A stretch of 64,000 nucleotides of DNA from Haloactinopolyspora alba (GTDB taxonomy: Bacteria; Actinomycetota; Actinomycetes; Jiangellales; Jiangellaceae): assembly GCF_003014555.1 (NCBI RefSeq), contig NZ_PYGE01000009.1, positions 1 through 64,000 on the forward strand, in the 5' to 3' direction. Of this stretch, positions 17,926 to 33,170 are shown piece by piece. Made by a program: the position numbers and the translations under genes. A model generated the notes under the pieces. That model was not told the DNA's origin, searched no databases, and saw nothing but the letters and a program-made list of their open reading frames with translations. How positions within the stretch are numbered: the stretch's first letter is position 1; each line of letters begins with the position of its first letter.

Positions 17926-19791
17926 TCAGGTGTGCACGGCGAGCAGTTGGTCGCGAAACACTTCCGGCAGCGTGTCCTGCGAAAGTGCTCGCACGATGTG
18001 TGCTGCGCCTTCGGCTGCTGATCCCGCTGCCTCCGTCAACTCGTGGCCGGCCGCGGTGAGCCGCTGCTCGAGCAAGTGCCGCAACGGCCCGTCCTGACCT
18101 GCGATCCCGCCCACCGCCGCGAGTCGCCGGGTAAGGCCATCGGCAGCGTGCAGCAGCGTGGCCGCGAGCTCGTCGGCGGCTTGGGCGAGTAACTCGGCCG
18201 CAGCGTCGTCCTCTCGCGCCGCCGCCACGACGTCGGGCACGAACGACGCCATCGTCGCGGAGGGATCGGGGCTGCGGTGCAGGTCGTTGACGAGCGTCGC
18301 TACGCTGCCGAAGCGACTCTCGGCTGCTGTGCGCAGGGCCGCGGACGTCGTGGGTCGGCCCGTTGCATGTCGAACCGCGACCTCCAGCGCCCGACGACCG
18401 ATCCACGCCCCGCTGCCGATGTCGCCGAGCAGGTGACCGAGGCCGTCGGTGCGCCTCCACGTGGTCGTCGCATCGGTGGCGATCACGACCGAACCTGTTC
18501 CGGCCGCGAGCACCGCCCCGGCCTCGAACCCCAGCGCTCCCACGTAGGACGACACGCCGTCTGCGAACACCGCCATCATGTCGGCGTGCACGATGTTCAG
18601 GATCGGCAGCAGCGCCTCCGTGACGTTCGGAAACGCCCGACCACCGGCGACTCCCAACCCCAGGGTGGCGACATCCAGGCCGTGCCGTCGCGTCGAGACC
18701 GTCACTTCACGGGCCACGGCGTCGCTGACCGCCCGCAGGTCCGGACCTGTTGCGGACACGGACGGCCGTACGTGACCTTGCACCATGTCGACGAGCTCGC
18801 CGCCGCGCACGATCGCGACGCGATAGCCACTGGCGCCGATGTCGACGCCCACGTGGCAGTCCTGGGCGGTGCGTCGACGGTTCGACCTGGTCGTGTGCTG
18901 TACCGCCTCTCGCAGGCTGCGATGCTTCTCGTCCAGGGCACGCGCTCGTGCAGGATCGACGTCCAACAGCAGGACGAGCAGAGCCGTGCGAACCTCTCCA
19001 CCGCAGGTGTCGAGGGCGCGGGCGGCTTCCGGGGCTGATGCGCCGGAGGCGACTTGCAGCAGGGTGAGTACGCGGGCGCGCAGCTTGTCGTTGACCGGGA
19101 CGAGATCGATCATCAGATTCGAGTAGGTGTGGCCCAAGCGGATCATCAGCGCGGTGGAGAAGCTGCTCAAGATCAGCTTCTGGGCCGTTCCCGCCTTCAT
19201 CCGGGTCGATCCGGTGATCACCTCGGGGCCGGTCGCGGCACAGAGGTGATGATCGGCCCCATCGGCCAGGGGTGCACTGGGATCAGAGGTGATGGCGACG
19301 GTGCGGGCGCCGAGTTCCCGTGCGCGACGAAGGGCGCCGGCGACGTACGGCGTCCTGCCGCTGGCGGCCAGGCCGATGGCGATGTCATCGGCCCGGAGGG
19401 CCTGCTCGGCGTCCGCGGCGCCGGACTCGGGGTCATCCTCGGCGTCCTCGACGGCGCTGATCATCGCTGCCGTGCCACCCGCGAGATGAGCGGTGAACGT
19501 GTCGGAGGACACCCCATAGGTCGCCGGCACCTCGGCGGCGTCCAGCACCCCGAATCTGCCCGAGGTGCCGGCGCCGAAGTAGTGGACGCGACCGCCTCGT
19601 CGTACCGCCGCGACTGCATGATCCACGACCGCCGCCAGTTGCGGCAGTGTTGCCGCGACAGCCCCGGGAACATTGCTGTCCTCCGTGTTGATGCAGGTCA
19701 GGATCTCCTGCGTGCTCATCAGGTCGATGTCGTACGACTCCGACAGGCGTCGTTCCGTGGGCTTGTCCGTGCCGGTCGCGCGAGTTGTCAC
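17926..19791 (-). CDS. fused N-acetylmuramic acid 6-phosphate etherase and BadF-type amino-sugar kinase
   Basis: A 621-residue two-enzyme protein. Residues 10-300 are MurQ: the SIS-domain motif HYFGAGTSGRFGVLDAAEVPATYG includes catalytic-type E87, and TGSTRMKAGTAQK near 193-205 is also typical. Residues 312-615 are a BadF/BcrA-type ATPase/sugar kinase: GVDIGASGYR (315-323), AAGTGSV (429-435) and GDIGSGAWIG (456-465). MurQ cleaves the D-lactyl ether of MurNAc-6-phosphate to GlcNAc-6-phosphate; BadF-type kinases such as MurK phosphorylate MurNAc and GlcNAc. The fusion could thus do both successive steps. GTG start overlaps the heparinase stop (GTGA). No EIIC-type MurP nearby. Confidence 0.85.
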   Translation of the reverse strand: MTTRATGTDKPTERRLSESYDIDLMSTQEILTCINTEDSNVPGAVAATLPQLAAVVDHAVAAVRRGGRVHYFGAGTSGRFGVLDAAEVPATYGVSSDTFTAHLAGGTAAMISAVEDAEDDPESGAADAEQALRADDIAIGLAASGRTPYVAGALRRARELGARTVAITSDPSAPLADGADHHLCAATGPEVITGSTRMKAGTAQKLILSSFSTALMIRLGHTYSNLMIDLVPVNDKLRARVLTLLQVASGASAPEAARALDTCGGEVRTALLVLLLDVDPARARALDEKHRSLREAVQHTTRSNRRRTAQDCHVGVDIGASGYRVAIVRGGELVDMVQGHVRPSVSATGPDLRAVSDAVAREVTVSTRRHGLDVATLGLGVAGGRAFPNVTEALLPILNIVHADMMAVFADGVSSYVGALGFEAGAVLAAGTGSVVIATDATTTWRRTDGLGHLLGDIGSGAWIGRRALEVAVRHATGRPTTSAALRTAAESRFGSVATLVNDLHRSPDPSATMASFVPDVVAAAREDDAAAELLAQAADELAATLLHAADGLTRRLAAVGGIAGQDGPLRHLLEQRLTAAGHELTEAAGSAAEGAAHIVRALSQDTLPEVFRDQLLAVHT

Positions 19792-22700
19792 TCGGCCAGC
19801 TTCCACGGTCCGTGCGGTTCGCCGGGGACGTCGTTCCTCGTCCGCCTCGTCGTGACGTAGCGGTTCTCGCGGTACTCCACCTCGTCCTTCTCCGTGAAGA
19901 TCCTCGACGGCCGCCACAACGCCGTGCCGTCCTCCGCCACCGCGATTTCCTGCCACGGACCGCGGGCAGCACCGGGTTCCTGGTTCGGCGCCCGCCACGA
20001 GGCAAGCCAGACGGAGCCTTCATGGGTGACGGAGTCACCTTCCGAGTACGTGGTCGCGGGGTCCCAGGCCCGTGGCGCGGGCTCGACGTCGGAGTCGTCG
20101 GTGTCGCAGGATCGGGAAACTGTGAGGTCCTCGAACGTGCTCTCCTTCGTCGCGTAGAGCCCGACACCGCCGCTACGCACGACGGTGTCGCGAGCATCGA
20201 GGATCTCTTCGCCGTTCAACGTCACCGTGATGCGGTCACCGTGGATCGTTGCGCCCAGCTCGACCGGACCGTCCAGAGGGTCGCTGAGGGATGTTCCCGC
20301 TACCTTGACCGGCCCCGACCTGTGAGCCTCGCGGATGATGCTCGCGTACTGCGTCCCGCGGCTGGTCTTGCCGACATGGATCCGGTACCCGTAGGAGTCG
20401 GTGGAATCTCGCAACGAGACGCCTGCTGCACCGCGGCCGGGCAAGGTGACGGTGGTGTCGACCTCGTAGTTGCACGTCTCGGAGAAGCGTGCGGGCAGGG
20501 CCGAGTCGACCAAGACGTGTGCCCTGCCACCGTTGGCAGCGAGCCGCAGTTGACCCGAGTCGACGGACGCCTCGCCGCGGATCCCCCGCCAGTGGTCCTG
20601 GTCCAGCACTTCGGCAATCGTGACGTTGTCGAAGGTCGCGGCCCGTCGATGCGTATAAGCCGCGACGCCTCCGGTAGGCAGGCGTGTGTCATTGGCGGAG
20701 ATCGACGTGTCGCCGACAGTGGCGGTCAGATGTCGCCCGACGGCGGATACGGTCATGGTGTGTGCGGCATCGGCGTCGAGTCGCAGATCAGTCTCGGCGA
20801 GGACGGTGAGCTGGCCGTAGAAGACCTTGATGATCTGAAGCTTCACACCCTCCGACGTGTTGAGAACGTTGGCCCGGTAGTAGTTGCGGGAGTCGCGGTA
20901 GCGGAACGCGAGACCGGTCCGGGTGGTCGTCTGGTGGCGCGTCCCGGGCACGACCTCCGCTGTCATGACCATGTCGGTCGGCACGTCTTGCTGCACCGCG
21001 AACGACAGCCTGTCGGCGGTCGACGTCTGCGCCAGCTGCGTGCCTTCCTGGCCTCCCAGCGCCCAGTCACCGTGCGCCGGCCTCCAGCCCTCGAGAGACC
21101 CGTCATCGAAGCCGTAGACGGTGCTGTCCAGACTCGCCTCCGCGAAGTCCTCCTCGAGTACCGGGGTGAGATCGACGGCTGCCTCGACGGAGAGGGAGAC
21201 GACGTCACCGTTGCGGGTGAACGCCGCCGGCTCACCGTTCACCAGCACCACGTCCGCGTCCGGAGCGTTGATCGACAGCGACCCCGTGAACGGATCCCCG
21301 AGCGAGATTCGCGCGGTGTCGCCGGCCAGCTCCACACTGATGTCGGACACGACGTCGGATGCGTCGACGAGGCTCGCGTCGTCCCTGACCAGCGACGAGC
21401 CCGACGTCAGCGAGTACCGCGTGAGGCCGCCGTCCTCGTCACGCTCGATGTAGGCGGTCTCGCCGTCGGTCGCGGCAGTCCCGAACTCCCTCGACGCGGG
21501 ATCGTCCTCACGTGAGAGGTAGAACGTGCCGGTTCCCTCGGGGAGGTCGATCTCCAGAGCGGTCGCCACGGAGTGATCGACTCCGGGCAGCTCGATGCGT
21601 TCCGCTGTCACCGACGGCGCCGGACCGGCCTTGCCTGGAACCACCACGGTGTCCAGTCCGGTGGCGCCGGTGGTGGACCAGTCGTACGACAGATAGTCGA
21701 CGTCGGTGCGTACGTCCTGACCGACCCGGACGGCGCCGTCGTCGTGGACGGTCGGGGTGACGTCGGAGCCAGCGGTGCCGACGGGTACGAGCTGCACGCC
21801 GGAGACCGGCTCGTCGCCCGGCACGGTGTCGAACCCGACCGTGGCGACGCCCGTGCTGTCGTCGACGGAGACCGGGTCGCCCGGGAAGTGCCAGAGCTGC
21901 CGGTAGTCGTGCGCGTCGGCATCGCCCGTCAGCGAGTCGGAGACGATCCAGAAGCCGGGCTTGACGAAGTAGACGACCCGGTCGTGGGTGATCGGCCGGT
22001 ACCCCTGAGCCTCGCCACGGTAGACATCGAGGCCCGCGTTCGAGCGCCACAGCCATGTGGCGCGGGTGACTCCGGCTTCCTGCGGGCGTCCATCGACCTC
22101 GACGGTGTTGTGCGCCTCGGTCGTCCGACGCATCCAGTTGTTCGTCTCGGTTGAGCTGTAGTCTTTTCCGACCCCTGGATCGACGATCAACGGGCGGCCG
22201 TAGGCAGCCATCACGAGGCTGAGGTCGTCCGGATGCCGGTGGGATCTCGTGTAGCCGGTGTTCTGGTTGTTGATCAGCATGTACCGGGCATCGCTGTCCC
22301 AGCCGGAGCGCTGGACCGCGTAGCTGATGGGGTAGACCGTGGACCCGAGCGTCGGAACCGTCCCCTCGGTCCGACCGGAGCCGACCCAGGAGAAGTCGGT
22401 CCACGAGTTTCGCGCTCCGCTCGTCCGAATGGCGTCCGTACCCGCCCTGCCCTTCGCGGTGTCACCGATCAGAGCAGATTCGAGATTCGGCATGCGAGTC
22501 GCGAACAGAGCGTCTGCCAGCCGGTCCGCCGAACTGGCGATCGAGTCGGGGAGGCTCCGCCCGTTGGTGTCAGCGAACTCGATGATGGTGTTCAGCAGAT
22601 TCGCAACGTAGGCGTGGTAGTTGAAGGTCGGCTCGCGGTACACGCTGTCGCTCTTGAGGTGTCTCCCGACGAACCATTCGACCGAACGCACGACGTACGG

Positions 22701-23540
22701 CTCCCACCTCGGCGATGCCGAGAACTCGGGAAAGTACACCGCCGAGACATAGATCGCGCGTGCGATCGAAAGGTACCAGTTGTTCCCTACGTAGTTCTGC
22801 AGCACGTCAGACAGGTGATCCGTCGTCGCGTGGACACCGGACAGGTACGCCACGAGGTCGGACGGGTCGATGGTCGGCTCGGTGCGGAACACGGAGAACG
22901 AGTCGACGAGCTGCGCGAGCCGCTTGGCCGCCGAGAGATTCCTGTTCGACGGCCAGCTCTGCATGTCGTTGAAGAAGTCGAGGGAGATGTCCATCCACGC
23001 GGCCGCGTACGTTGCGCGTTTCTGCGGGTCGCTCTCGTTGAGGTACGCGTCCGTCAGAACGGGCATGAACGAGAAGTCGGTCATCAGAACCCGCGCATGG
23101 CCCGGGTTCTCCTCGGTGCCGCCCCAGGTGTCGTGCCAGTCGACGTCGATCCGCTGCTCGGCATCGTCGTAGAAGTCGCGGGTCTCGGTGCCGAACCGGA
23201 AGATCCCGCTCGCGAGTTCGTCGGCGGTCGCGTCACGAATGCCGCCCCCTCCGGGCGACGGAACTTCGATACCGGTGCGGCCGGAATAGAACTCCGTGAG
23301 TTCCTCCGCGGCGCCTTCCTCGTCACCGGCGTCGAGCCTGTCCGCGACGTCGGCGAGCTCTGGACGTGACAGGTCGAGCAATTCGCCGAGCTCTGACATG
23401 TCGCCCGCCGTAGTGGCGGCCGTCGCCGTGGGCAGGCCCGTCGTTGACAGGCCTGTCGTCACGAGGGCCAGCACAAACATTGCGGCAGCCATAGCGCGAG
23501 CACGACCGTGAGTGGCTCGCCGGGGAACGTTCCGCTGCAT
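19788..23540 (-). CDS. secreted heparinase II/III-like polysaccharide lyase with two CBM5/12-type modules
   Basis: A 1250-residue secreted protein. After a signal peptide (~1-42) comes an alpha-toroid with NYHAYVANLLNTI near 360. A heparinase II/III beta-sandwich follows, with SHRHPDDLSLVMAAYGRPLIVDPG near 430. The ~800-1150 region holds two LamG/DUF1080-like beta-sandwich repeats, each with YRIHVG or YRANVL-type strands. The C terminus has two Trp-rich modules (AWDPATTYSEGDSV and ALWRPSRIFTEKDEV, 1155-1250) of the CBM5/12 chitin-binding type. Start: ATG with AAGGAGG upstream. The substrate should be a polysaccharide containing uronic acid or amino sugar; chitin-like binding and the coupled MurQ-kinase gene point to amino-sugar polymers. 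Confidence 0.82.
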   Translation of the reverse strand: MQRNVPRRATHGRARAMAAAMFVLALVTTGLSTTGLPTATAATTAGDMSELGELLDLSRPELADVADRLDAGDEEGAAEELTEFYSGRTGIEVPSPGGGGIRDATADELASGIFRFGTETRDFYDDAEQRIDVDWHDTWGGTEENPGHARVLMTDFSFMPVLTDAYLNESDPQKRATYAAAWMDISLDFFNDMQSWPSNRNLSAAKRLAQLVDSFSVFRTEPTIDPSDLVAYLSGVHATTDHLSDVLQNYVGNNWYLSIARAIYVSAVYFPEFSASPRWEPYVVRSVEWFVGRHLKSDSVYREPTFNYHAYVANLLNTIIEFADTNGRSLPDSIASSADRLADALFATRMPNLESALIGDTAKGRAGTDAIRTSGARNSWTDFSWVGSGRTEGTVPTLGSTVYPISYAVQRSGWDSDARYMLINNQNTGYTRSHRHPDDLSLVMAAYGRPLIVDPGVGKDYSSTETNNWMRRTTEAHNTVEVDGRPQEAGVTRATWLWRSNAGLDVYRGEAQGYRPITHDRVVYFVKPGFWIVSDSLTGDADAHDYRQLWHFPGDPVSVDDSTGVATVGFDTVPGDEPVSGVQLVPVGTAGSDVTPTVHDDGAVRVGQDVRTDVDYLSYDWSTTGATGLDTVVVPGKAGPAPSVTAERIELPGVDHSVATALEIDLPEGTGTFYLSREDDPASREFGTAATDGETAYIERDEDGGLTRYSLTSGSSLVRDDASLVDASDVVSDISVELAGDTARISLGDPFTGSLSINAPDADVVLVNGEPAAFTRNGDVVSLSVEAAVDLTPVLEEDFAEASLDSTVYGFDDGSLEGWRPAHGDWALGGQEGTQLAQTSTADRLSFAVQQDVPTDMVMTAEVVPGTRHQTTTRTGLAFRYRDSRNYYRANVLNTSEGVKLQIIKVFYGQLTVLAETDLRLDADAAHTMTVSAVGRHLTATVGDTSISANDTRLPTGGVAAYTHRRAATFDNVTIAEVLDQDHWRGIRGEASVDSGQLRLAANGGRAHVLVDSALPARFSETCNYEVDTTVTLPGRGAAGVSLRDSTDSYGYRIHVGKTSRGTQYASIIREAHRSGPVKVAGTSLSDPLDGPVELGATIHGDRITVTLNGEEILDARDTVVRSGGVGLYATKESTFEDLTVSRSCDTDDSDVEPAPRAWDPATTYSEGDSVTHEGSVWLASWRAPNQEPGAARGPWQEIAVAEDGTALWRPSRIFTEKDEVEYRENRYVTTRRTRNDVPGEPHGPWKLAE

Positions 23541-23752
23541 GCCAGGGCCTCCTTGCATCTCGGTGTCCGTGACGGCGTCAGCCGTTGAGTTCGTCCCCCG
23601 TGTGTTCGTGCTCGGCTTCGTACTCGGCCAGGTCCGAGCCTGTGATGTCGTCCCGTGAAGACTGGAGAAGCACGGATCGGTGGCCCGTGCCACGAGCGGT
23701 TGAGGGCAACGGTGGTCCTTCCGGTCTGCGGCGGGGATCGCCGTGCCTGGCC

Positions 23753-23801
23753 CTTGACGTGTCGTTGCGTCACCGTAGGCGTACGCCACTCTGAGCGTCA
23801 A
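23753..23801 (-). promoter_or_regulatory. promoter and LacI-type operator of the heparinase operon
   Basis: On the minus strand TTGACG (23801-23796) and TACGGT (23777-23772), 18 nt apart, form the promoter. Immediately downstream lies the 20-mer TGACGCAACGACACGTCAAG (complement of 23753-23772), identical to the copy at 24984-25003. The half-site TGACGCAACG also occurs in a near-perfect palindrome at 24931. The arrangement predicts repression by steric block and leaves a ~210-nt untranslated leader before the heparinase ATG. The rest of 23541-23881 shows no gene. Confidence 0.78.
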
Positions 23802-23881: not shown

Positions 23882-24922
23882 ATGACACCGATGGCGACCC
23901 AGAAAGAAATCGCACGTCGTGCCGGCGTCTCGGTGTCGGTCGTCTCTGCCGTGCTCAACGGCACTACACACACTCGGATGAGTGACGAGACGCGGGCGCG
24001 CATCGAGGCGGCCATCGCCGAGGTCGGGTATGTGCCCAACGATGCTGCACGTGCATTGCGGCGCCAGCAGGCGGGCACGATCGCGGTGGTCGTCGAGAAG
24101 CTGGAGAATCCCGCCTACAAGGAGCTGTTCCACGGCATCTACGAGGCGGCCGAGGCGCGGGGTTGGGCGGTGGTGCTGGGCGACACCGTCTGGATGCGTT
24201 CCGGCAGCCACTTTCTCGCGCGGCTGCTTGGTCGAGGGTCGATAGATGCGATCCTGCTGCGGCACGACGGCCTGATCGACGAGGAGGCGCTCGCTCACCT
24301 GCGCGCAAGACCCACCCCCGTCGTGCTGCTGGAGCGCCAATCCGACCCGCAAGATCCGTGGGTGGCGGTAGACGACTCCGCCGCTGCACGGTTGGCCACC
24401 GAGCACCTCATCGAGTTCGGACACACCGATATCGCCTTCGTGGGCGGTACCGCCGGCCAGCCCTCGACGGCCCGTTACGAGGGATACGTGGCCGCCATGA
24501 ACGACGCGCGGCTGTCACCTCGGGAGCACTTGTTCACGGGCTTCGGCGCCGAGTCCGGTGTTCGGGGACTGACTGAGCTCCGATCAGGCGATGTGTTGCC
24601 CACCGCGGTCGTGGTCGCGAACGTGATGTCGGCGGTCGGCTTGCTCGCAGCGGCTGCCGATGCGGGGATCGACGTTCCGCGCCGGCTCTCGGTGGTCGGG
24701 ATCCACGACGTCGAGATCGCCGATGTCGTCAGGCCGTCGTTGACGACCGTCCGGTTGCCGATGCGGGCGCTGGGCGTTCGGGCGGTCGAGGAGCTGTCGG
24801 CGCTGCTCTCGGGTGCTCCCATGGAGCCGGGCGTGATCGCGGACCCGCCGCCGCAAGTCATCGCCCGTAGTAGTACCGCGCCGGCTCCTGCTGAGCTGAC
24901 GTCTCGGAGTGACGAGTTGTGA
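23882..24922 (+). CDS. LacI family transcriptional regulator of the heparinase/MurQ/importer regulon
   Basis: A 346-residue LacI repressor. The N-terminal helix-turn-helix (ATQKEIARRAGVSVSVVSAVLNG) and hinge (AARALRRQQAGTIAVVV) are intact, followed by a periplasmic-binding-fold effector domain. GAGGGG precedes the ATG at 23882 by 8 nt; a second ATG three codons later is possible. The gene lies between two operons that each carry the same 20-bp operator, and no copy sits at its own start, so it likely controls both neighbours but not itself. The effector should be a breakdown product of the polymer cut by the lyase. Confidence 0.88.
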   Translation: MTPMATQKEIARRAGVSVSVVSAVLNGTTHTRMSDETRARIEAAIAEVGYVPNDAARALRRQQAGTIAVVVEKLENPAYKELFHGIYEAAEARGWAVVLGDTVWMRSGSHFLARLLGRGSIDAILLRHDGLIDEEALAHLRARPTPVVLLERQSDPQDPWVAVDDSAAARLATEHLIEFGHTDIAFVGGTAGQPSTARYEGYVAAMNDARLSPREHLFTGFGAESGVRGLTELRSGDVLPTAVVVANVMSAVGLLAAAADAGIDVPRRLSVVGIHDVEIADVVRPSLTTVRLPMRALGVRAVEELSALLSGAPMEPGVIADPPPQVIARSSTAPAPAELTSRSDEL

Positions 24923-24930
24923 CCGCCTTC

Positions 24931-24948
24931 TGACGCAACGTTGCATCG
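24931..24948 (+). promoter_or_regulatory. upstream palindromic LacI-type operator
   Basis: TGACGCAACGTTGCATCG contains the perfect palindrome GCAACGTTGC with the central CG typical of LacI-family sites, and its left half equals the half-site of the two 20-bp operators. It lies directly upstream of the -35 of the importer operon. Two sites flanking one promoter suggest tight or cooperative repression. Confidence 0.65.
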
Positions 24949-24955
24949 GATCCTA

Positions 24956-25003
24956 TTGACGCTCGGAACGCGGTCATCTACGTTGACGCAACGACACGTC
25001 AAG
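24956..25003 (+). promoter_or_regulatory. promoter and operator of the importer operon
   Basis: TTGACG (24956-24961) and TACGTT (24979-24984) are 17 nt apart. The operator TGACGCAACGACACGTCAAG (24984-25003) begins at the last base of the -10 and runs to the AGAGGAG ribosome-binding site, so it covers the transcription start. Promoter and operator are near-copies of those of the heparinase operon. Confidence 0.78.
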
Positions 25004-25015
25004 AGGAGCCATGTC

Positions 25016-26971
25016 ATGACCGATCACCGCCCGCTCTTCCTACCGAACCGGCGGACGTTCCTCGCCGGTGTCGGCGCCGCCGGCCTCGCCGCAGTCGTGG
25101 GCTGCAGCGCCGACGGCGACAGCCCCAGCCGGAGCGACAAAGGCCCCGAAGCACCTGGCCTGGCAGACCTCGTCGACTCGGGCGAACTGCCCCCGGTCGA
25201 GGATCGACTTCCGGCCAAACCGCTGGTGGTCGAGCCTGTCGAGCGCGTCGGCGTCTACGGCGGTCGCCTGAACACCGTCGTGCTCGGTCAGCAAGACCTC
25301 TCCTACACGAAGATGACGATCGGCTACGAGGGTCTGATGCGCTGGACGCCGGACTGGTCGGACACGATCCCGAACGTCGCCGAGTCCGTCGACGTGTCCG
25401 ACGATGCCTCGACGTACACGTTCCACCTGCGCGAGGGCATGCGATGGTCGGACGGCAAACCGTTCACGGCCGCCGACATCGTGTTCGCCGCGAACGACGT
25501 CGCGTTCAACGAGGAGTTCGCGGGCGCGGTGGAGTCGGCCCACCTGTCCAACCCCGATGGCGACGCGACGGCCGAGGCGCTCGACGAGTACACCGTCCGG
25601 ATCACGTTCCCGTCACCGAACGCGGGCTTCCTCGACGAGCTCTCCACGTTCAACAGCGCGGGGGTCCTCGTCGGGCACCCCAAGCACTACATGTCGCAGT
25701 TCCACCCCGCCCACAACGACAAGGCGCAGGCGAACGCGTCGGCGGCCGGCTTCGAGCACTGGGTCGACTACTACGTCGACCGCGCCGACTGGCGCATCAA
25801 CACCGAACTGCCGACCGTGAACGGGTGGGTCGTGACCCGCACCCTCGAGGAAGGCAGCGAGATCCTCGCCGAGCGCAACCCGTACTACTGGAAGGTCGAC
25901 CCCGACGGCAGCCAACTGCCGTACCTCGACGAGATCCGCCACGAGCTGGTCAGCGACGAGGAGGTCGTGCTGCTCAAGGCGACCCAGGGCGAGCTCGACA
26001 TCGTGACCCGCCACATCAACAGTCTCGAGAACAAGCCGGTGCTCGCCGACGCTCGCGAGGACGGCGACTACCATTTCATCGACCTGCAGACGAGTTTCAT
26101 GAACGAGATGGTCATCTCGCTCAACCTCAACCACCAGAACCAGGTGAAGCGGGAGATCTTCCAGAACAAGGACTTCCGCATCGCGCTCTCACACGCGATC
26201 AACCGCGACGAGATGAACAACGCGGTATTCCAGGCGCAGGGCGAGGCGTGGCAGGCCGCGCCCAACCCCGACTCGATCTACTACGACGAGGAGATGGCGC
26301 AGCAGTACACCGAGTACGACGAGGATCTTGCCAACCAGATGCTCGACGAGGCCGGGTACGCCGAGCGTGACTCCGACGGCTACCGTGTCGGCCCCGACGG
26401 CGAGCGCATCCGTATCACCGTCGAGATCGCCTCTCCCGCGCCGACGCCGTACATGGTCGACGCCATGGAGCTCGTCTCCGGGTACTGGGACGCGGTGGGC
26501 ATCGACACACGGCCGGAACCGATCGACCGCTCGCTGTACCAGGAGCGCACCGCGGCGAACGAGCACGACGCCGGTGTATGGAACGGTACCGGCGGGTTCC
26601 GCGACGAGGTGCTCGCGCCGCTGTACTACCTGCCTTCGCGCACGGCGTTGGTCGCGTGGGCCGTCGAGTGGGCGGAGTACTTCATCAGTCGTGGCGCGGA
26701 AGGCGAGACTCCGCCCCAGGCGCCGCTGCGCCAGATGGAGCTGTTCTGGCAGATGGAGTCGGAGCCCGACCAGGCGCGGCGCGAGGAGCTCTTCCGCGAG
26801 ATCCTGCAGATCGCCAAGGACGAGTTCTACACGATCGGCACGTTACGGATCCCGCTCAGCTACGGCACCGTCGCCAACAGCCTCAAGAACGTGCCGGAGG
26901 CCTTCCCGACCGCGTTCCGGTTCGCCGATCCCGCACCGACCAACCTGTCGCAGTACTTCTTCGAGGACTGA
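25016..26971 (+). CDS. ABC transporter substrate-binding protein, family 5 (dipeptide/oligosaccharide type)
   Basis: A 651-residue lipoprotein. The N terminus has both a twin-arginine motif (NRRTFLAG) and a lipobox (VVGC), implying Tat export and lipid anchoring. The mature part has the SBP_bac_5 pattern, including LREGMRWSDGKPFTAADIVFA and a C-terminal mixed lobe. Family members bind dipeptides, oligopeptides, muropeptides or, in several bacteria, oligosaccharides. Operator and promoter are shared with the heparinase/MurQ operon, so the ligand is probably a product of that lyase. A competing ATG five nt upstream opens only a two-codon frame and was not used. Confidence 0.87.
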   Translation: MTDHRPLFLPNRRTFLAGVGAAGLAAVVGCSADGDSPSRSDKGPEAPGLADLVDSGELPPVEDRLPAKPLVVEPVERVGVYGGRLNTVVLGQQDLSYTKMTIGYEGLMRWTPDWSDTIPNVAESVDVSDDASTYTFHLREGMRWSDGKPFTAADIVFAANDVAFNEEFAGAVESAHLSNPDGDATAEALDEYTVRITFPSPNAGFLDELSTFNSAGVLVGHPKHYMSQFHPAHNDKAQANASAAGFEHWVDYYVDRADWRINTELPTVNGWVVTRTLEEGSEILAERNPYYWKVDPDGSQLPYLDEIRHELVSDEEVVLLKATQGELDIVTRHINSLENKPVLADAREDGDYHFIDLQTSFMNEMVISLNLNHQNQVKREIFQNKDFRIALSHAINRDEMNNAVFQAQGEAWQAAPNPDSIYYDEEMAQQYTEYDEDLANQMLDEAGYAERDSDGYRVGPDGERIRITVEIASPAPTPYMVDAMELVSGYWDAVGIDTRPEPIDRSLYQERTAANEHDAGVWNGTGGFRDEVLAPLYYLPSRTALVAWAVEWAEYFISRGAEGETPPQAPLRQMELFWQMESEPDQARREELFREILQIAKDEFYTIGTLRIPLSYGTVANSLKNVPEAFPTAFRFADPAPTNLSQYFFED

Positions 26972-27056: not shown

Positions 27057-27989
27057 ATGGTGCAGTTCCTGATCCGGCGCATCCTGTACATGATCCCGAC
27101 GCTGTTCCTGATCTCGATGCTGGTGTTCGTGATCATCCAGCTCCCGCCCGGTGACTACCTGACCACGGTGATCGTGGAGATGGAGGAGAGCGGCGAGGGC
27201 GTCGATCAGGCGCAGATCGAGTACCTGCGTGGGCGGTACGGACTGGATCAGCCGATCTGGGTGCAGTACTGGCAGTGGATCTCGGGCATCATCTTCGAGC
27301 TGGACTTCGGCCATTCGTTCGAGTGGGGCCGCGAGGTGTCGTCGCTGGTCGCCGACCGGCTGCCGCTGACGATCGCGATCTCGCTCATCACCGTCGTGTT
27401 CACGTGGGCGATGGCGTTGCCGATCGGCATCTACTCGGCCGTGAAACAGTACTCGGTCGGCGACTACTTCTTCACCACCATCGGGTTCCTCGGCGTCGCG
27501 ACGCCGAACTTCCTGCTCGCGCTGTTGTTGATGTGGGCCGCCGCCAGCATGGGGATGAGCGTGGGCGGCATGTCGCCCGCGATGTTCGTGGTCGCCGTCG
27601 TCGTGCTCGGCACGGCCGGCACTGCGGGCCTCATCCGCGTCATGCGCGCGAACCTTCTCGACGAGCTGAAGAAGCCGTACGTGGTCGCGGCCAGGGCGCG
27701 CGGCATCCCGCAGCGCAAACGCCTCATCAAATACCCCGTACGTGTGGCCATGAATCCGTTCGTCTCGTCCATCGGGTGGCTGCTTCCCGGGTTGATCTCC
27801 GGTGAGGTCATCGTCTCCAGCGTGATGAACCTCCACACCACCGGCCCGCTGCTGCTGGAGGCGCTACGCGGTCAGGACATGTACCTGGCGGGATCGATCA
27901 TCCTGATCGCCGCCGTGCTCACCGTTGTCGGAACGCTGCTGTCGGACCTTGCGCTGGCGTGGCTCGATCCGCGGATCCGGATCAACTGA
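27057..27989 (+). CDS. ABC transporter permease (DppB/OppB type)
   Basis: A 310-residue permease with the DppB signature start (FLIRRILYMIPTLFLISMLVFVI), a periplasmic loop carrying the YLRGRYGLDQPIWVQYWQWI segment, and five further helices. The cytoplasmic coupling loop contains VVAARARGIPQRKRLIKYPVRVAMNP. It is separated from the binding-protein gene by a strong stem-loop and is followed 13 nt later by the second permease. Together with the next two genes it forms a complete peptide/oligosaccharide importer. Confidence 0.87.
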   Translation: MVQFLIRRILYMIPTLFLISMLVFVIIQLPPGDYLTTVIVEMEESGEGVDQAQIEYLRGRYGLDQPIWVQYWQWISGIIFELDFGHSFEWGREVSSLVADRLPLTIAISLITVVFTWAMALPIGIYSAVKQYSVGDYFFTTIGFLGVATPNFLLALLLMWAAASMGMSVGGMSPAMFVVAVVVLGTAGTAGLIRVMRANLLDELKKPYVVAARARGIPQRKRLIKYPVRVAMNPFVSSIGWLLPGLISGEVIVSSVMNLHTTGPLLLEALRGQDMYLAGSIILIAAVLTVVGTLLSDLALAWLDPRIRIN

Positions 27990-28002: not shown

Positions 28003-29154
28003 ATGTTCCGAAACAACGCCTCGACCATCGGGCCCGACAGTGAGCCGGACGACCAGGCCGCGGAGAAGTACGCCGTCGCCTCGCGCTGGCGCCTGGTGTG
28101 GCGGCGCTTCCGCAACCACAAGCTCGCCATGGCGGGCCTGATCGTCACGATCCTGGTGTACGTCGTGGCGGTGTTCGGGGAGTTCCTCGCCCCGTACAGC
28201 ACCAGCCACCTCAACGACGAGTACACGTATGCACCGCCGCAGCGGCTGCAGATCGTGGACACGTCCGGGGACGACTGGGACTGGGGCCTGCACGTCAACG
28301 GCTACACGATGGAGCGCGACCCCGAGACGCTCGCACAGGAGTTCACGACGGACCCGGACAACAAGGTGCCGGTGGGGTTCTTCGTGAAAGGAGAAGAGTA
28401 CGAACTGTTCGGCCTGATTCCGTGGGACCGTCATTTGATCGGCCCGGTCGACAGCGACACCCCGATGTACCTGCTCGGAGCGGACCAGATGGGGCGCGAT
28501 CAGTTCTCGCGCATCATCCACGGCACGCGGATATCGATGTCGGTCGGCCTCGTCGGTGTCGCGATGGGATTCGTTCTCGGCATCCTGCTCGGAGGCATCT
28601 CGGGGTACTTCGGCGGCAGGACCGACACGATCGTCCAGCGTGCCGTCGAGCTGTTCATGTCGCTGCCCACACTGCCCCTGTGGCTGGGGCTGGCGGCGGC
28701 GATCCCCCGAGATTGGGGTAGCGTCGAGAGATACTTCGCGATCACCGTCGTGCTGTCGCTGGTGGCGTGGACGGGCCTGGCGAGAGACGTACGCGGCCGG
28801 TTCATGTCGCTGCGCGAGGAGGACTTCGTGACGTCCGCCCGCCTCGACGGCACGGGCGAGCCCCGAATCATCTTCGGCCACGTCCTGCCGTCGTTCACCA
28901 GCCACCTGATCGCGACGCTGACCCTGTCGATCCCGACGATGATCCTCGCCGAGACGGCGCTGTCGTTCCTCGGTCTCGGGCTGCAGCCACCGACCGTGTC
29001 GTGGGGTGTGCTGTTGCAGGAGGCCCAGAACATCCGCGTCATCTCGACGGCGCCGTGGCTGCTGCTGCCGGGGGTCGCCGTCGTGGTCGCGATCCTCGCG
29101 CTGAACTTCCTCGGCGACGGTCTGCGCGATGCGGCCGACCCGTACAAGCACTGA
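28003..29154 (+). CDS. ABC transporter permease (DppC/OppC type)
   Basis: A 383-residue permease, longer than the usual ~300. A basic cytoplasmic N terminus precedes the first helix (AMAGLIVTILVYVVAVFGEFLAP). A ~110-residue acidic extracytoplasmic insertion follows (residues ~65-165), before the conserved LLGADQMGRDQFSRIIHGTRIS segment. Five more helices and the coupling sequence TSARLDGTGEPRIIFGHVLPS complete it. Long loops at this position are known in some OppC-type subunits of oligosaccharide importers. ATG with GGGAG upstream. Confidence 0.86.
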   Translation: MFRNNASTIGPDSEPDDQAAEKYAVASRWRLVWRRFRNHKLAMAGLIVTILVYVVAVFGEFLAPYSTSHLNDEYTYAPPQRLQIVDTSGDDWDWGLHVNGYTMERDPETLAQEFTTDPDNKVPVGFFVKGEEYELFGLIPWDRHLIGPVDSDTPMYLLGADQMGRDQFSRIIHGTRISMSVGLVGVAMGFVLGILLGGISGYFGGRTDTIVQRAVELFMSLPTLPLWLGLAAAIPRDWGSVERYFAITVVLSLVAWTGLARDVRGRFMSLREEDFVTSARLDGTGEPRIIFGHVLPSFTSHLIATLTLSIPTMILAETALSFLGLGLQPPTVSWGVLLQEAQNIRVISTAPWLLLPGVAVVVAILALNFLGDGLRDAADPYKH

Positions 29155-29170: not shown

Positions 29171-31414
29171 ATGACCGCCATGACCCGAGCGGAGGAGGCC
29201 TCCGTCTCCCAGAACAGTGGTGCTGCGCGTGCGCCGGGCGACAGTGGCGAGGCCGTGCTGACCATCGACGGACTCAAGACGCACTACAAGACGGACGAGG
29301 GCGTCGTGAGAGCCGTCGACGGCGTCGATCTCACCGCCTACCGTGGCCAGACCACGTGCGTGGTCGGTGAGTCGGGCTGCGGCAAGTCGGTGACGGCGCG
29401 ATCGATCCTGCAGCTGATCGACCTGCCGGGGAAGATCGCCGACGGGCGCATCATGTGGCAGCCGGACCCGGCCGTCGAGGCCGTCGACCTGACGACGCTG
29501 GACGAGGACGGTGAGCAGCTGCGCCGCGTGCGCGGCGGCGAGATCGGCATGGTCTTCCAGGAGCCGATGGCGTCGCTGTCGCCGATGTACACGGTCGGAT
29601 CGCACCTGGTGGAGACGATCCTCCTGCACACGGATCTCAACGAGGCCGATGCGAAGGACCGGGCCATCCATGAGCTCAAGCGGGTGGGCATACCGCAACC
29701 GGAGCGGCGCTTCGACGCGTATCCGTTCCAGTTGTCGGGCGGCATGTGCCAGCGCGTGATGATCGCACTGGCGCTGTCCTGTGAACCCGCGCTGCTGATC
29801 GCCGACGAGCCGACCACTGCGCTCGACGTCACCACCCAGGCACGCATCCTCGACCTCCTCCTCGGGCTGCAGGAGGAGACCGGGATGTCGATGCTGTTCA
29901 TCACGCACGACCTCGGGGTGGTGGCGGAGATCGCGGCCGACGTGTCGGTGATGTACCTCGGCAAGGTCGTCGAGAAAGCCGGGGTGGACGAGCTGTTCGA
30001 GAACCCGCAGCACCCCTACACGCAGGCCCTGCTGGAGTCGATTCCGAGCCTGGACCATGACGGCCAGAAGCCGGGCCGTCTGCGCGCGATCAGCGGGACG
30101 GTGCCGCACCCCGCCGACCGTCCGGCCGGGTGCTCGTTCCACCCGCGCTGTCCGCACGCGATGGCGGGGACCTGCGATGCCGAAGAGCCCCCGGTGATCG
30201 ATCTCGGCGACGGCCGGATCGCACCCTGCCACCTGCACGACCCGGAGAGCTCGGGGCCCGGCCGGCCGTTGCCGTTGCTGCCCGTCCCGCCCGTCCAGGA
30301 GGCCCGGGCCACCGGCGCGGACGATGCGGTCGACGTCGCCGCCGTGCCCGCGCCCGACCTGGCTGGCAAGCAGCCGATGCTGCGCGTGCGGGACCTGTCG
30401 GTCGAGTTCCCGATCCGGAAGGGCTTCTGGAACCGCACCGTCGGGCACGTAGGCGCCGTCAGCAGCGTCGATCTCGACATCTACCCCGGTGAGACGCTCG
30501 GGCTCGTCGGCGAGTCCGGCTGCGGCAAGACCACGCTCGGTCGCAGCATCGTCCGCGCGCTGGAGCCCACACGGGGATCGATCACCTACCGCCCGCCCGG
30601 CTCGGACGGCGAGGTCGATCTTGCGGCACTTGGCGGCCGCGCGTTGCGGCCGTACCGCAGCGACGTGCGAATGATCTTCCAGGACCCCTTCACCTCGCTG
30701 AACCCGCGCAAGACTCTGCTGCAGCTGATCGGCGAGCCGCTCCGGCGGGCCGGCGCGCGCAACGGACCGGTCGCCGGCACGAAGGTGAACGACAGCACCA
30801 CCCAGGACCAGGTCGCCGAGATGCTCGCGAGGGTCGGCCTGCGGCCGGAGTACATGTGGCGATACCCGCACGCGTTCTCGGGCGGGCAGCGTCAGCGCGT
30901 CAACATCGCGCGGGCGCTCATCACCCGCCCCAGCGTGGTCGTCGCCGACGAGGCGGTGTCCGCCCTCGACGTGTCCGTGCGTGCGCAGATCCTGAACCTG
31001 CTGAAGGACCTGCAGGAGGAGTTCCGGCTCACCTACCTGTTCATCTCGCACGACCTGTCCGTGGTCGAGCACGTGTGCGATCGCGTCGCCGTGATGTACC
31101 TGGGGCGGGTGGTCGAGCGGGCCGACACGGACTCGTTGTTCGAACAGCCGCGGCACCCGTACTCGGAGGCGCTGCTGTCGGCGGTGCCGCAGCCCGATCC
31201 GCGCCAACGCGGCACAGGTAAGCGCATCCGCCTGCCAGACGACCTGCCGGATCCGACCGACCCGCCGCCTGGGTGCCGCTTCCACACCCGCTGCCGGTTC
31301 GCAGTCGAAGGACTGTGCGACCGGGCCGGAGCATCGCCGGTGCTCCGGGATGAGGCGAGTCACTCGGTCGCGTGTCTGCGCGCCGAGGAGATCCAGTTGC
31401 AGGGCCGCCAATGA
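29171..31414 (+). CDS. double ABC transporter ATPase (DppD-DppF fusion)
   Basis: A 747-residue protein with two complete nucleotide-binding domains. The first has Walker A GESGCGKS (~70), signature LSGGMCQR and Walker B LLIADEP; the second has GESGCGKT (~450), signature FSGGQRQR and VVVADEA. Each ends in the oligopeptide-transporter C-terminal extension with [10 protein letters not shown] and [10 protein letters not shown], typical of DppD/DppF. One gene thus supplies both ATPase subunits of the importer. It starts 16 nt after the permease, and the pyruvyl-transferase gene begins 28 nt after it. Confidence 0.88.
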
Positions 31415-31442
31415 TGCACCAACCCGAGAGGACGAAACTGAC

Positions 31443-32708
31443 ATGACGATCCAGGACCCGAGTCCAGGCCGTACCGTGCTTCTCCGCACGGCGTGGCAGG
31501 TGGACAACCTGGGCGATGTCGCTCATGTGCCGGGAGCGATCCGGGCACTCCAGAAGCACGGCGGGGCCGAGGTGATCCTGTGGCCGCTGGATCTCGGCAC
31601 ACGGGAGCGGCAGCTGATCGCCGAGATCCACCCCGACGTGGAGATCGTCGACGGGGAGGTCTCCGACAGCGGCCTGCCCACCGACTCTGACGTCCTCGCC
31701 GCGTGGGAGCGCGCGGACGTGTTCGTGCACGGCCCTGGCGCGTCGCCGATGCTGGGGAAGGAGATCGACGGCTGGCGCGCGCACACCGGCAAGCCGTACG
31801 GCTACTTCGGCGTCACGGCCGATCCGGTCTGCCCGCCCACGTTGGCGACGCTCGCCGAGATCGACAAGATGATCGACCTGCTGCTCGAGGACTACATGGA
31901 CGACGAGCTGCGCGAACGCCTCGAGGGTGCGGAGTTCTTCTACGCTCGCGACTCGCTGAGCCTGAAGTACCTGCGCGGCCAGAAGCTGCAGGGCGTGCGG
32001 CTGGAGTTCGGCCCGGATGCGACCTTCGAGTTCACGCACCGCGACGACGACGCGGCCGAGGCGTTCCTGCAGCGGTTCGGGCTCACCGAACGGCAGTTCG
32101 GCTGCTTCGTCCCGCGCGTGCGGTACGCGCCGTATCCGCAGATGAAGCGCCGGCACCCCACGCGCGAGCAGCAGCGCCGTGCGGCCCTGAACCAGGTGAC
32201 GTGTAGCGAGGACCTGGACGCGTTCGCGGGCATCGTGACCGACTGGGTGCGAACCACCGGCACACCCGCGGCGGTCGTGCCGGAGATGAGTTACGTGCAC
32301 GAGCTCGCGCTGGGGCATCTACCCGAGCGCCTCCCGGAGGACGTCCGTGATCGCGTGCACGTCCTGGACCGCTACTGGCCGCTCGAGGAGATGTCCGGCG
32401 TCTACGCGCGCGCTGCGGTCGTGGTGAGCATGGACTGTCATTCCCCGATCATCGCTGCCGCGCAGGGGACCCCGACGTTCTACGTGCGCCTGCCCACCGA
32501 GACGACGAAGGGCAGGATGTACGCGGATCTCGGCGACCCGGACATGGTGGTCGAGATCGAGGACGCGCCGCGTGCGGGGCAGCTCGCGATCGCCGCCTAT
32601 CGAGACTGGGACGCGGCGTCCCGTCGTGCGGTCGCGCTGGCCGAGAACGCGGATGCCCTGCTGCGGGAGGTGGCGGTCGCCGTGAGCCGTGCGCCGGCGC
32701 TCACCTGA
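31443..32708 (+). CDS. polysaccharide pyruvyl transferase-like protein
   Basis: A 421-residue cytoplasmic protein of the polysaccharide pyruvyl transferase (CsaB/WcaK-like, GT-B fold) family. NLGDVAHVPGAIRAL near residue 20 matches the family N-terminal motif. The C-terminal region MDCHSPIIAAAQGTPTFYVRL...TKGRMYADLG matches the donor-side R/C-H...A...G-P...K motif. Known members transfer pyruvate ketals from PEP to sugars of cell-wall or exopolysaccharides. Here it is the last gene of an import operon under a catabolic LacI operator, which is unexpected for a biosynthetic enzyme. A role in modifying or removing decorations on imported sugars is possible but unproven. Confidence 0.72.
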   Translation: MTIQDPSPGRTVLLRTAWQVDNLGDVAHVPGAIRALQKHGGAEVILWPLDLGTRERQLIAEIHPDVEIVDGEVSDSGLPTDSDVLAAWERADVFVHGPGASPMLGKEIDGWRAHTGKPYGYFGVTADPVCPPTLATLAEIDKMIDLLLEDYMDDELRERLEGAEFFYARDSLSLKYLRGQKLQGVRLEFGPDATFEFTHRDDDAAEAFLQRFGLTERQFGCFVPRVRYAPYPQMKRRHPTREQQRRAALNQVTCSEDLDAFAGIVTDWVRTTGTPAAVVPEMSYVHELALGHLPERLPEDVRDRVHVLDRYWPLEEMSGVYARAAVVVSMDCHSPIIAAAQGTPTFYVRLPTETTKGRMYADLGDPDMVVEIEDAPRAGQLAIAAYRDWDAASRRAVALAENADALLREVAVAVSRAPALT

Positions 32709-32801
32709 GTACACGGGCGGGGCGAGAGTCCGCACCCAGGTGATCGGGCTGCCGGCGAAGTTCGAGCATCAGCCGCGCCGTCGCGTGGGGCCGGACGCGG
32801 T

Positions 32802-32842
32802 GGATCGGACACCGACGACGCAGCGCCGCCGGTGTCCGATCC
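32802..32842. terminator. hairpin downstream of the importer operon
   Basis: Perfect 13-bp inverted repeat (GGATCGGACACCG and its complement, 15-nt loop) 94 nt after the pyruvyl-transferase stop. There is no U tract, common for actinobacterial terminators, so termination is inferred from position and stem strength. Confidence 0.4.
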
Positions 32843-33170
32843 GTTGCTGGGTGGGCGGCGCTGCGGCACAGCGTTTGGAAGGCGTAGCGACCGGGGACGA
32901 CAGGCTTGAGGTCCCCGTCGGCGGCGATCACCTCAAGGGCCATGAACGGCTGGCTGGTCCGCGTCCCCCGGCGGCCAGCGTCAGGACCGCGCCCCGGTCG
33001 CGGGCAAGTGCCCCGAGGTCCAGCAACATCGTCCGGGTCGTGTGCTGCTCGGCCGCCGAGAGCTCACGCCACCCTGCAAGCTCTCGGCGCAACTCCTCGA
33101 CGTTGCCTCGCTACCGCGCTCCGCTGCGTGCCACAGGATGAACCGTGCCGCCGTCCGTGCCACGTGTCAT
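32843..33170 (-). pseudogene. frameshifted gene remnant
   Basis: On the minus strand three partial frames succeed each other in gene-like order. The first carries RTAARFILWHAAERGSEA, the next ELRRELAGWRELSAAEQHTTRTMLLDLGALARDRGAVLTLAAGG (given in parts 33110-32960), and the last MALEVIAADGDLKPVVPGRY. No single frame spans them, but joining them with two frameshifts gives one plausible ~100-residue protein. Family not recognised. It lies beside a tRNA gene, a frequent site of integration and decay. A chance reading of GC-rich DNA is not excluded. The wider gap 32709-33213 holds no other gene. Confidence 0.3.

Follow-up and report, generated by a model that had tools for sequence, protein, structure and literature searches.

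A PF04230-fold protein from a putative lyase, importer and sulfatase regulon belongs to a clade distinct from the canonical pyruvyltransferases compared and may act in uronide degradation

The window analysed here is a 64,000-nucleotide stretch of Haloactinopolyspora alba DNA (contig NZ_PYGE01000009.1, positions 1 to 64,000), and the gene under study lies in an importer operon with the following features around it.

17926..19998, minus strand: fusion of a SIS (MurQ-like) protein and a BadF-type kinase, directly after the lyase gene on the same strand
19788..23801, minus strand: lyase of the heparinase II/III type that has a CBM5/12 match and an N-terminus resembling a signal (coordinates of the listed ORF; Pfam)
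23755..23772, minus strand: 18-mer identical to the putative operator, inverted, on the lyase side, some 215 nt ahead of the probable start of the lyase gene
23882..24922, plus strand: LacI-family regulator, upstream of the importer operon (Pfam)
24931..24948, plus strand: second, degenerate palindromic operator-like site (sequence comparison)
24984..25001, plus strand: putative operator TGACGCAACGACACGTCA, ahead of the importer operon (exact copy in locus L031)
25016..26971, plus strand: family-5 solute-binding protein (Pfam)
27057..27989, plus strand: DppB/OppB-type permease (Pfam)
28003..29154, plus strand: DppC/OppC-type permease (Pfam; ATG start from sequence reading)
29171..31414, plus strand: double ATPase of a Dpp/Opp-type importer (Pfam ABC_tran twice, oligo_HPY twice)
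31443..32708, plus strand: PF04230-fold protein, the clade member studied here (ORF, Pfam, alignment, model and tree)

The last of these genes opens with an ATG at 31443, its stop codon ends at 32708, and its product has 421 amino acids; 28 nt separate it from the ATPase stop (31414). The protein matched Pfam PF04230 (PS_pyruv_trans) with an E value of 4e-11 and 43.8 bits (cut-off 25.3), and this was its only Pfam match up to E 0.01, PF07470 (GH88/GH105) not being among them. The reading frame, start, length, intergenic gap and PF04230-type identity given in the initial annotation were thus all confirmed. A search of 31300-33000 for a sigma-70-like promoter or a terminator, which is a weak test, found neither and so gave no sign of the independent transcription that had been named as counting against the proposed function. 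The true start of the lyase ORF is likely 23540, as judged from the sequence, where GGAGG stands immediately ahead, and the solute-binding protein scored 16.8 bits against the TAT signal model TIGR01409 (cut-off 16.7). The SIS and BadF-type kinase fusion suggests an amino-sugar component. In Ruania rhizosphaerae (L031), the gene order is as in the window and the clade protein is 79% identical; a chance operon was rejected, as Ruania keeps both the order and the operator-like sites. Farther along the window, 36271-38538 on the minus strand encodes a PQQ/propeller-type protein with a signal-like start, and similar proteins adjoin a heparinase in another locus (L207).

The 18-mer TGACGCAACGACACGTCA flanks the LacI gene on both sides not only in the window but also, letter for letter, in Ruania. 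Three exact copies occur in the 5.5-Mb genome, ahead of the lyase, the importer and a sulfatase; the third (G000:C2:203707-203724, or L170:7708-7725) lies 138 nt ahead of the ATG that opens a sulfatase gene whose product has no obvious signal peptide, with a second sulfatase gene adjacent on the other strand. When up to two mismatches to TGACGCAACGNNNCGTCA were allowed, the whole genome contained 28 matches, compared with 9 for the reversed pattern. The Ruania genome holds two exact copies, in the equivalent places, and a further site elsewhere that differs at two positions; similar sites were read by eye ahead of the clade gene in Jiangella, Pseudactinotalea and Nonomuraea loci. Because looser matches within the window showed no excess (nine with up to three mismatches, a number reached in 11 of 100 shuffles), we placed the weight of the operator case on the exact, conserved copies. 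These copies support the placement of the clade gene, the heparinase-type lyase and the sulfatase under one putative LacI operator. The earlier proposal of a single LacI operator over the gene therefore stands as a putative 18-bp site ahead of the importer operon and draws nothing from the loose-match count; the catabolic-looking setting also held, the gene lying in a putative lyase, importer and sulfatase regulon rather than among genes for wall-polymer synthesis.

Relatives were sought in genome contigs of 84,980 species with two sequence patterns, one of which contained [ED]CHSP; 121 were confirmed, and the best 80 of the 121, which were kept, come from Actinobacteria, Verrucomicrobia, Planctomycetes, Bacteroidetes, Acidobacteria and others. 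The gene is patchily distributed, with matches in 7 of 22 genomes of the family and 8 of 393 of the class. When 81 clade rows were put into one tree with 18 canonical PF04230 proteins (WcaK of Escherichia coli colanic acid synthesis and 17 actinobacterial proteins), all 18 fell outside the clade with a split support of 100/99; the tree program flagged long branches among the canonical rows. This result supports a clade distinct from the canonical pyruvyltransferases compared, as the sequences place it, and runs against the alternative that phylogeny would set the gene among biosynthetic proteins. Homology to WcaK is nevertheless detectable (hhalign probability 99.2%). The window protein scored 22.5 bits against the CsaB equivalog TIGR03609, far below the curated cut-off of 213.1. 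The second PF04230 gene of the genome (G000:C5:211077-211865) has the canonical R.H motif and lies outside the clade. No published description of the clade or its activity was recognised among the open-licence papers searched.

The predicted structure of the window protein is a GT-B fold (pLDDT 94.3), and the solved structures that match it best are GT-B enzymes, with Z up to 23.3; in this model, the segments 280-284 and 330-333, both in the C-terminal half, are each preceded by a strand. The Pvg1p structure 5AX7 and CsaB were absent among the 50 structure matches listed, and a PDB sequence search with the single window protein found no convincing relative. WD40-repeat matches from an alignment-based PDB search were set aside as artefacts.

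In published work on CsaB of P. alvei, PEP was docked to R148, H308, K328 and R306, the first three of these were also probed by mutation, and the loop residue R207 was found to be essential (PMC10435577); in Pvg1p of S. pombe, R217 and R337 make contact with modelled PEP (PMC4872226). We compared the donor site by using WcaK and actinobacterial PF04230 proteins as stand-ins for CsaB and Pvg1p. The key residues of the window protein are R169, R227, E281, D331, H333 and K356, and the columns invariant in 81 of 81 clade rows (best 80 of 121 relatives) include R169, D192, R227, Y231, E281, W312, H333 and K356. R169 and H333 are the equivalents of CsaB R148 and H308, being aligned with the Arg and His of WcaK, with the CsaB-WcaK numbering linked by motif. 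K356 and R227 were placed by hhalign one to two residues off the canonical Lys and Arg (K356 two off the Lys of WcaK); K356 probably matches CsaB K328, and R227, likewise invariant, lies close to where R207 would fall. The equivalent of CsaB R306 and Pvg1p R337, by contrast, is an acid and not Arg in all 81 rows: position 331 is Glu in 68 and Asp in 13 (again among the best 80 of 121 relatives), whereas its canonical equivalent is Arg in 16 of 18 and Ser in 2 of 18, as counted by eye alongside a profile alignment. The [ED]CHSP search pattern covers this position; 12 of the 81 aligned rows misfit it (seven fit the other pattern only and five neither), and all 12 have Glu or Asp. Together with E281, the clade thus has two fixed acids. 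The donor-site check put forward with the initial annotation, made through WcaK, came out divided, with the R148 and H308 equivalents kept and the R306 equivalent replaced. In sum, the clade is like CsaB and Pvg1p in Pfam family and GT-B fold and differs from them, besides the acid at position 331, in its invariant E281, its catabolic-looking loci and its many apparently exported members.

We then compared 39 actinobacterial clade loci with 20 canonical PF04230 loci, likewise actinobacterial, by using identical tblastn queries. A LacI homologue was found in 37 of the 39 clade loci and 0 of the 20 canonical loci, and at least one ABC permease query matched in 37 of 39 and 1 of 20, respectively. 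A heparinase-type gene was present in 20 clade loci, one of the heparinase, PL5 or PL8 types in 23, and any lyase type including family c8 in 31 (8 of them through c8 alone), compared with 0/20 canonical loci in each case; the lyase queries were drawn from the clade's own loci, which biases these counts towards the clade, at least two canonical loci (L146 and L153) have a PF07940 protein of another type approximately 11 kb away, just beyond the fetched stretch, and two canonical loci fall short of 20 kb owing to contig ends (12.5 and 13.5 kb). No lyase was found with these queries in the remaining 8 of 39, and 12 of 14 genus-level groups had at least one lyase-bearing actinobacterial locus. 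The gene caller missed the clade gene at 10 of 81 loci (L031, L046, L047, L050, L054, L061, L067, L069, L075 and L078). Family c8 (L049:3556-5619, with homologues in L046, L047, L051, L053, L054, L055 and L057, eight clade loci in all) has a TAT-like N-terminus and no Pfam match at E 1e-5; its five-model structure is of low confidence (pLDDT 62), the best solved matches being mostly lyases of PL33, PL17, PL12 and PL8, and it is possibly a new lyase family. Family c18 scored 28.5 against PF14099 (PL20-like), under the Pfam cut-off of 29.9, and the counts were unchanged without it. Actinobacterial neighbours by Pfam also include a PL5-type alginate lyase, GH88 and enolase-superfamily proteins.

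Outside the Actinobacteria, 23 of 41 loci were covered by one or more Pfam scans, either of neighbouring genes or of the clade ORF, and the neighbours found include PL8, PL11, PL14, heparinase, GH2, GH3, GH10, GH92, GH97 and SusD. Lyases were found by query or Pfam in 6 of the 41 loci (L067, L072, L093, L099, L100 and L104), and the rest have mostly glycosidases, uptake or regulator genes. The clade copy on a Spirosoma plasmid lies among SusC/SusD, Gfo/Idh/MocA and SDR genes. Five planctomycete loci (L081, L083, L092, L097 and L098) share a different gene context (with an SDR in L083) that does not obviously resemble a glycan-uptake locus, and a sugar-transferase-type neighbour occurs at 3 of 4 Dyadobacter loci (two scanned, one by cluster).

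A natural fusion of 814 amino acids in Geminisphaera colitermitum (L099:55-2499) joins an alginate-lyase domain (residues 71-350, 263.5 bits), preceded by a Sec-like N-terminus as read by eye, to a clade domain (416-738). Export was called with a signal rule of our own, in a strict and a looser form. Under the strict rule, 35 of the 41 members from outside the Actinobacteria had a signal (TAT-like in 32, Sec-like in 3), compared with 0 of 40 actinobacterial members. With the looser rule, signals were called in 33 of 43 clade genes and 46 of 339 other genes (13.6%) at non-actinobacterial loci, in 0 of 33 clade genes and 53 of 467 other genes at actinobacterial loci, and in 0 of 18 canonical PF04230 proteins, the counts for other genes being blurred by genes missed or set on the wrong strand in gene calling. 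TIGR01409 listed 2 of 10 proteins, both below its cut-off. Six of the 41 lacked a signal (L099, L084, L096, L104, L108 and L109): in L099, the clade domain is unsignalled and the signal precedes the lyase domain; a LacI gene neighbours the clade gene in both L096 and L108, joined in L108 by an MFS sugar transporter, and L104 has a solute-binding protein. Many non-actinobacterial members thus seem to be exported. PEP is not expected in the periplasm, and exported members are therefore unlikely to catalyse a reaction that depends on it.

The sole PF07470 match in the genome is a GH76-type protein, and therefore no GH88/GH105 was found in this genome. We also assessed related importers: related solute-binding proteins were found at 50 places outside the window, of which 41 were used and nine, of 33-36% identity, left out. 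GH88 lay beside the binding protein in 3 of these 41 loci (L222, L268 and L269) and the clade gene in none; the window locus has the clade gene and no GH88, and 38 of the 41 have neither. This alternation of GH88 and clade gene in related importer operons, seen at three loci and the window, is no more than suggestive. The GH88 genes of L222 and L269 are backed by Pfam and that of L268 by the PF07470 survey, the gene caller having chosen wrong strands in L268 and L269; in L222 and L269, SDR and RraA-like genes stand ahead of GH88, and L222 has a heparinase-type gene. Seven further GH88 profile matches, scoring approximately 30-34 bits, hit the ORF of the solute-binding protein and were discounted as the product of a contaminated profile. 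Strict replacement of GH88 fails, because two Microbacterium loci contain both it and the clade gene, with a weaker GH88 match in a further clade locus (L090). Near actinobacterial heparinases, GH88 was found in 1 of 40 loci, too rarely for mutual exclusion to be judged. Sulfatase matches above 300 bits occurred at 5 of the 41 related importer loci. Two related importers of one genome (L255 and L260, G007) lie among several sulfatase-like genes, L260 also having an alginate-lyase-type gene.

For the clade, we consider a degradative role without dependence on PEP probable, at a confidence lowered slightly because support from TIGR01409 was weak. A removal role, one of the two first suggested, or a degradation role is favoured, without pyruvylated fragments as a necessary substrate: the several lyase types, the alginate-lyase fusion and GH88 in related operons favour unsaturated uronates, and no evidence for remodelling of the cell's own wall polymer, the other suggestion, was seen in the loci. 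A delta-4,5-unsaturated uronate end is a 2-alkoxyacrylate, the enol-ether analogue of PEP, and GH88 works by hydration of the unsaturated uronate. As a leading but tentative reading, we propose that the clade protein is a PEP-independent degradative enzyme acting on the delta-4,5-unsaturated uronate ends of lyase products. Outside the cell, the lyase would cleave a polymer that contains uronate and is probably sulfated; the importer would take up the fragments, sulfatases would desulfate them, and the clade protein would act in the cytosol on the unsaturated end left by the lyases. Retention of the Arg, the His and probably the Lys of the PEP pocket would follow from the resemblance of this end to PEP, and the Glu/Asp at the former PEP-contacting Arg could perhaps serve as a general acid. 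The clade protein would then be a GH88/GH105-like unsaturated-uronyl hydrolase on another fold, sharing a proposed reaction type with families to which it is unrelated by Pfam; in Verrucomicrobia, Planctomycetes and Bacteroidetes, the equivalent step would occur mostly after export. Fragment uptake would resemble the ABC importer for lyase-made glycosaminoglycan disaccharides, a likeness drawn from the available part of that report (PMC5430744), in which no PF04230 protein is mentioned. A fuller version, which we hold more loosely still, is that of a GT-B family removing such ends that evolved from PEP-dependent ketal-pyruvyltransferases, kept the enol-ether carboxylate pocket and exchanged one PEP-binding Arg for an acid, being exported in many Gram-negatives and cytosolic in actinobacteria, and replacing GH88/GH105 in genomes like the one studied here.

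The main rival, somewhat unlikely in our judgement, is a depyruvylase, close to the removal role first suggested, that would cleave pyruvate ketals by hydrolysis from oligosaccharides in the periplasm or after import, with the carboxylate in the place of PEP and Glu/Asp as the acid. A PEP pocket mostly kept with one acid swapped in, degradative-looking loci and often apparently exported members would all suit such an enzyme, as might the PL8 lyase, assigned at family level, directly ahead of three tandem clade genes in L072. Among the PL8 enzymes are xanthan lyases, which release pyruvylated mannose. However, we know of no pyruvylated substrate common to the heparinase-type and alginate-lyase-type partners and the alginate-lyase fusion. 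Another activity on uronate oligosaccharides, for example isomerisation or the attack of a GT-B glycosidase or phosphorylase on saturated ends, is unlikely. GT-B folds include phosphorylases, E281 and E/D331 are fixed throughout the clade, and the partners extend beyond lyases to GH2, GH3, GH92, GH97, GH10 and SusD; yet the apparent export of most Gram-negative members makes a phosphorylase unlikely, and among the enzyme partners found in actinobacteria, lyases occur most often. A conventional PEP-dependent pyruvyltransferase, working in the cytosol to decorate imported sugars or to trap them there, would explain the retained Arg148, His308 and probable Lys328 equivalents and the biosynthetic-looking neighbour at three Dyadobacter loci, but it is improbable given the invariable acid in place of Arg306, the apparent export under our own rule of most non-actinobacterial members, the low CsaB equivalog score and the separate clade.

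If the proposed reading is true, an entire branch is misnamed, a further enzyme family degrades lyase products in several phyla, and a PEP-dependent transferase has made an unusual shift to a degradative enzyme with an Arg-to-acid replacement in its donor site. The clade may also supply the uronide-processing step that is missing where a genome encodes lyases and sulfatases yet no GH88/GH105. Clade genes may be labelled polysaccharide pyruvyl transferase, an annotation met at one of them, and so point readers to biosynthesis. Tandem clade genes occur in three Opitutaceae/Verrucomicrobia metagenome-assembled genomes (L072, L077 and L080), with three, two and two copies, respectively.
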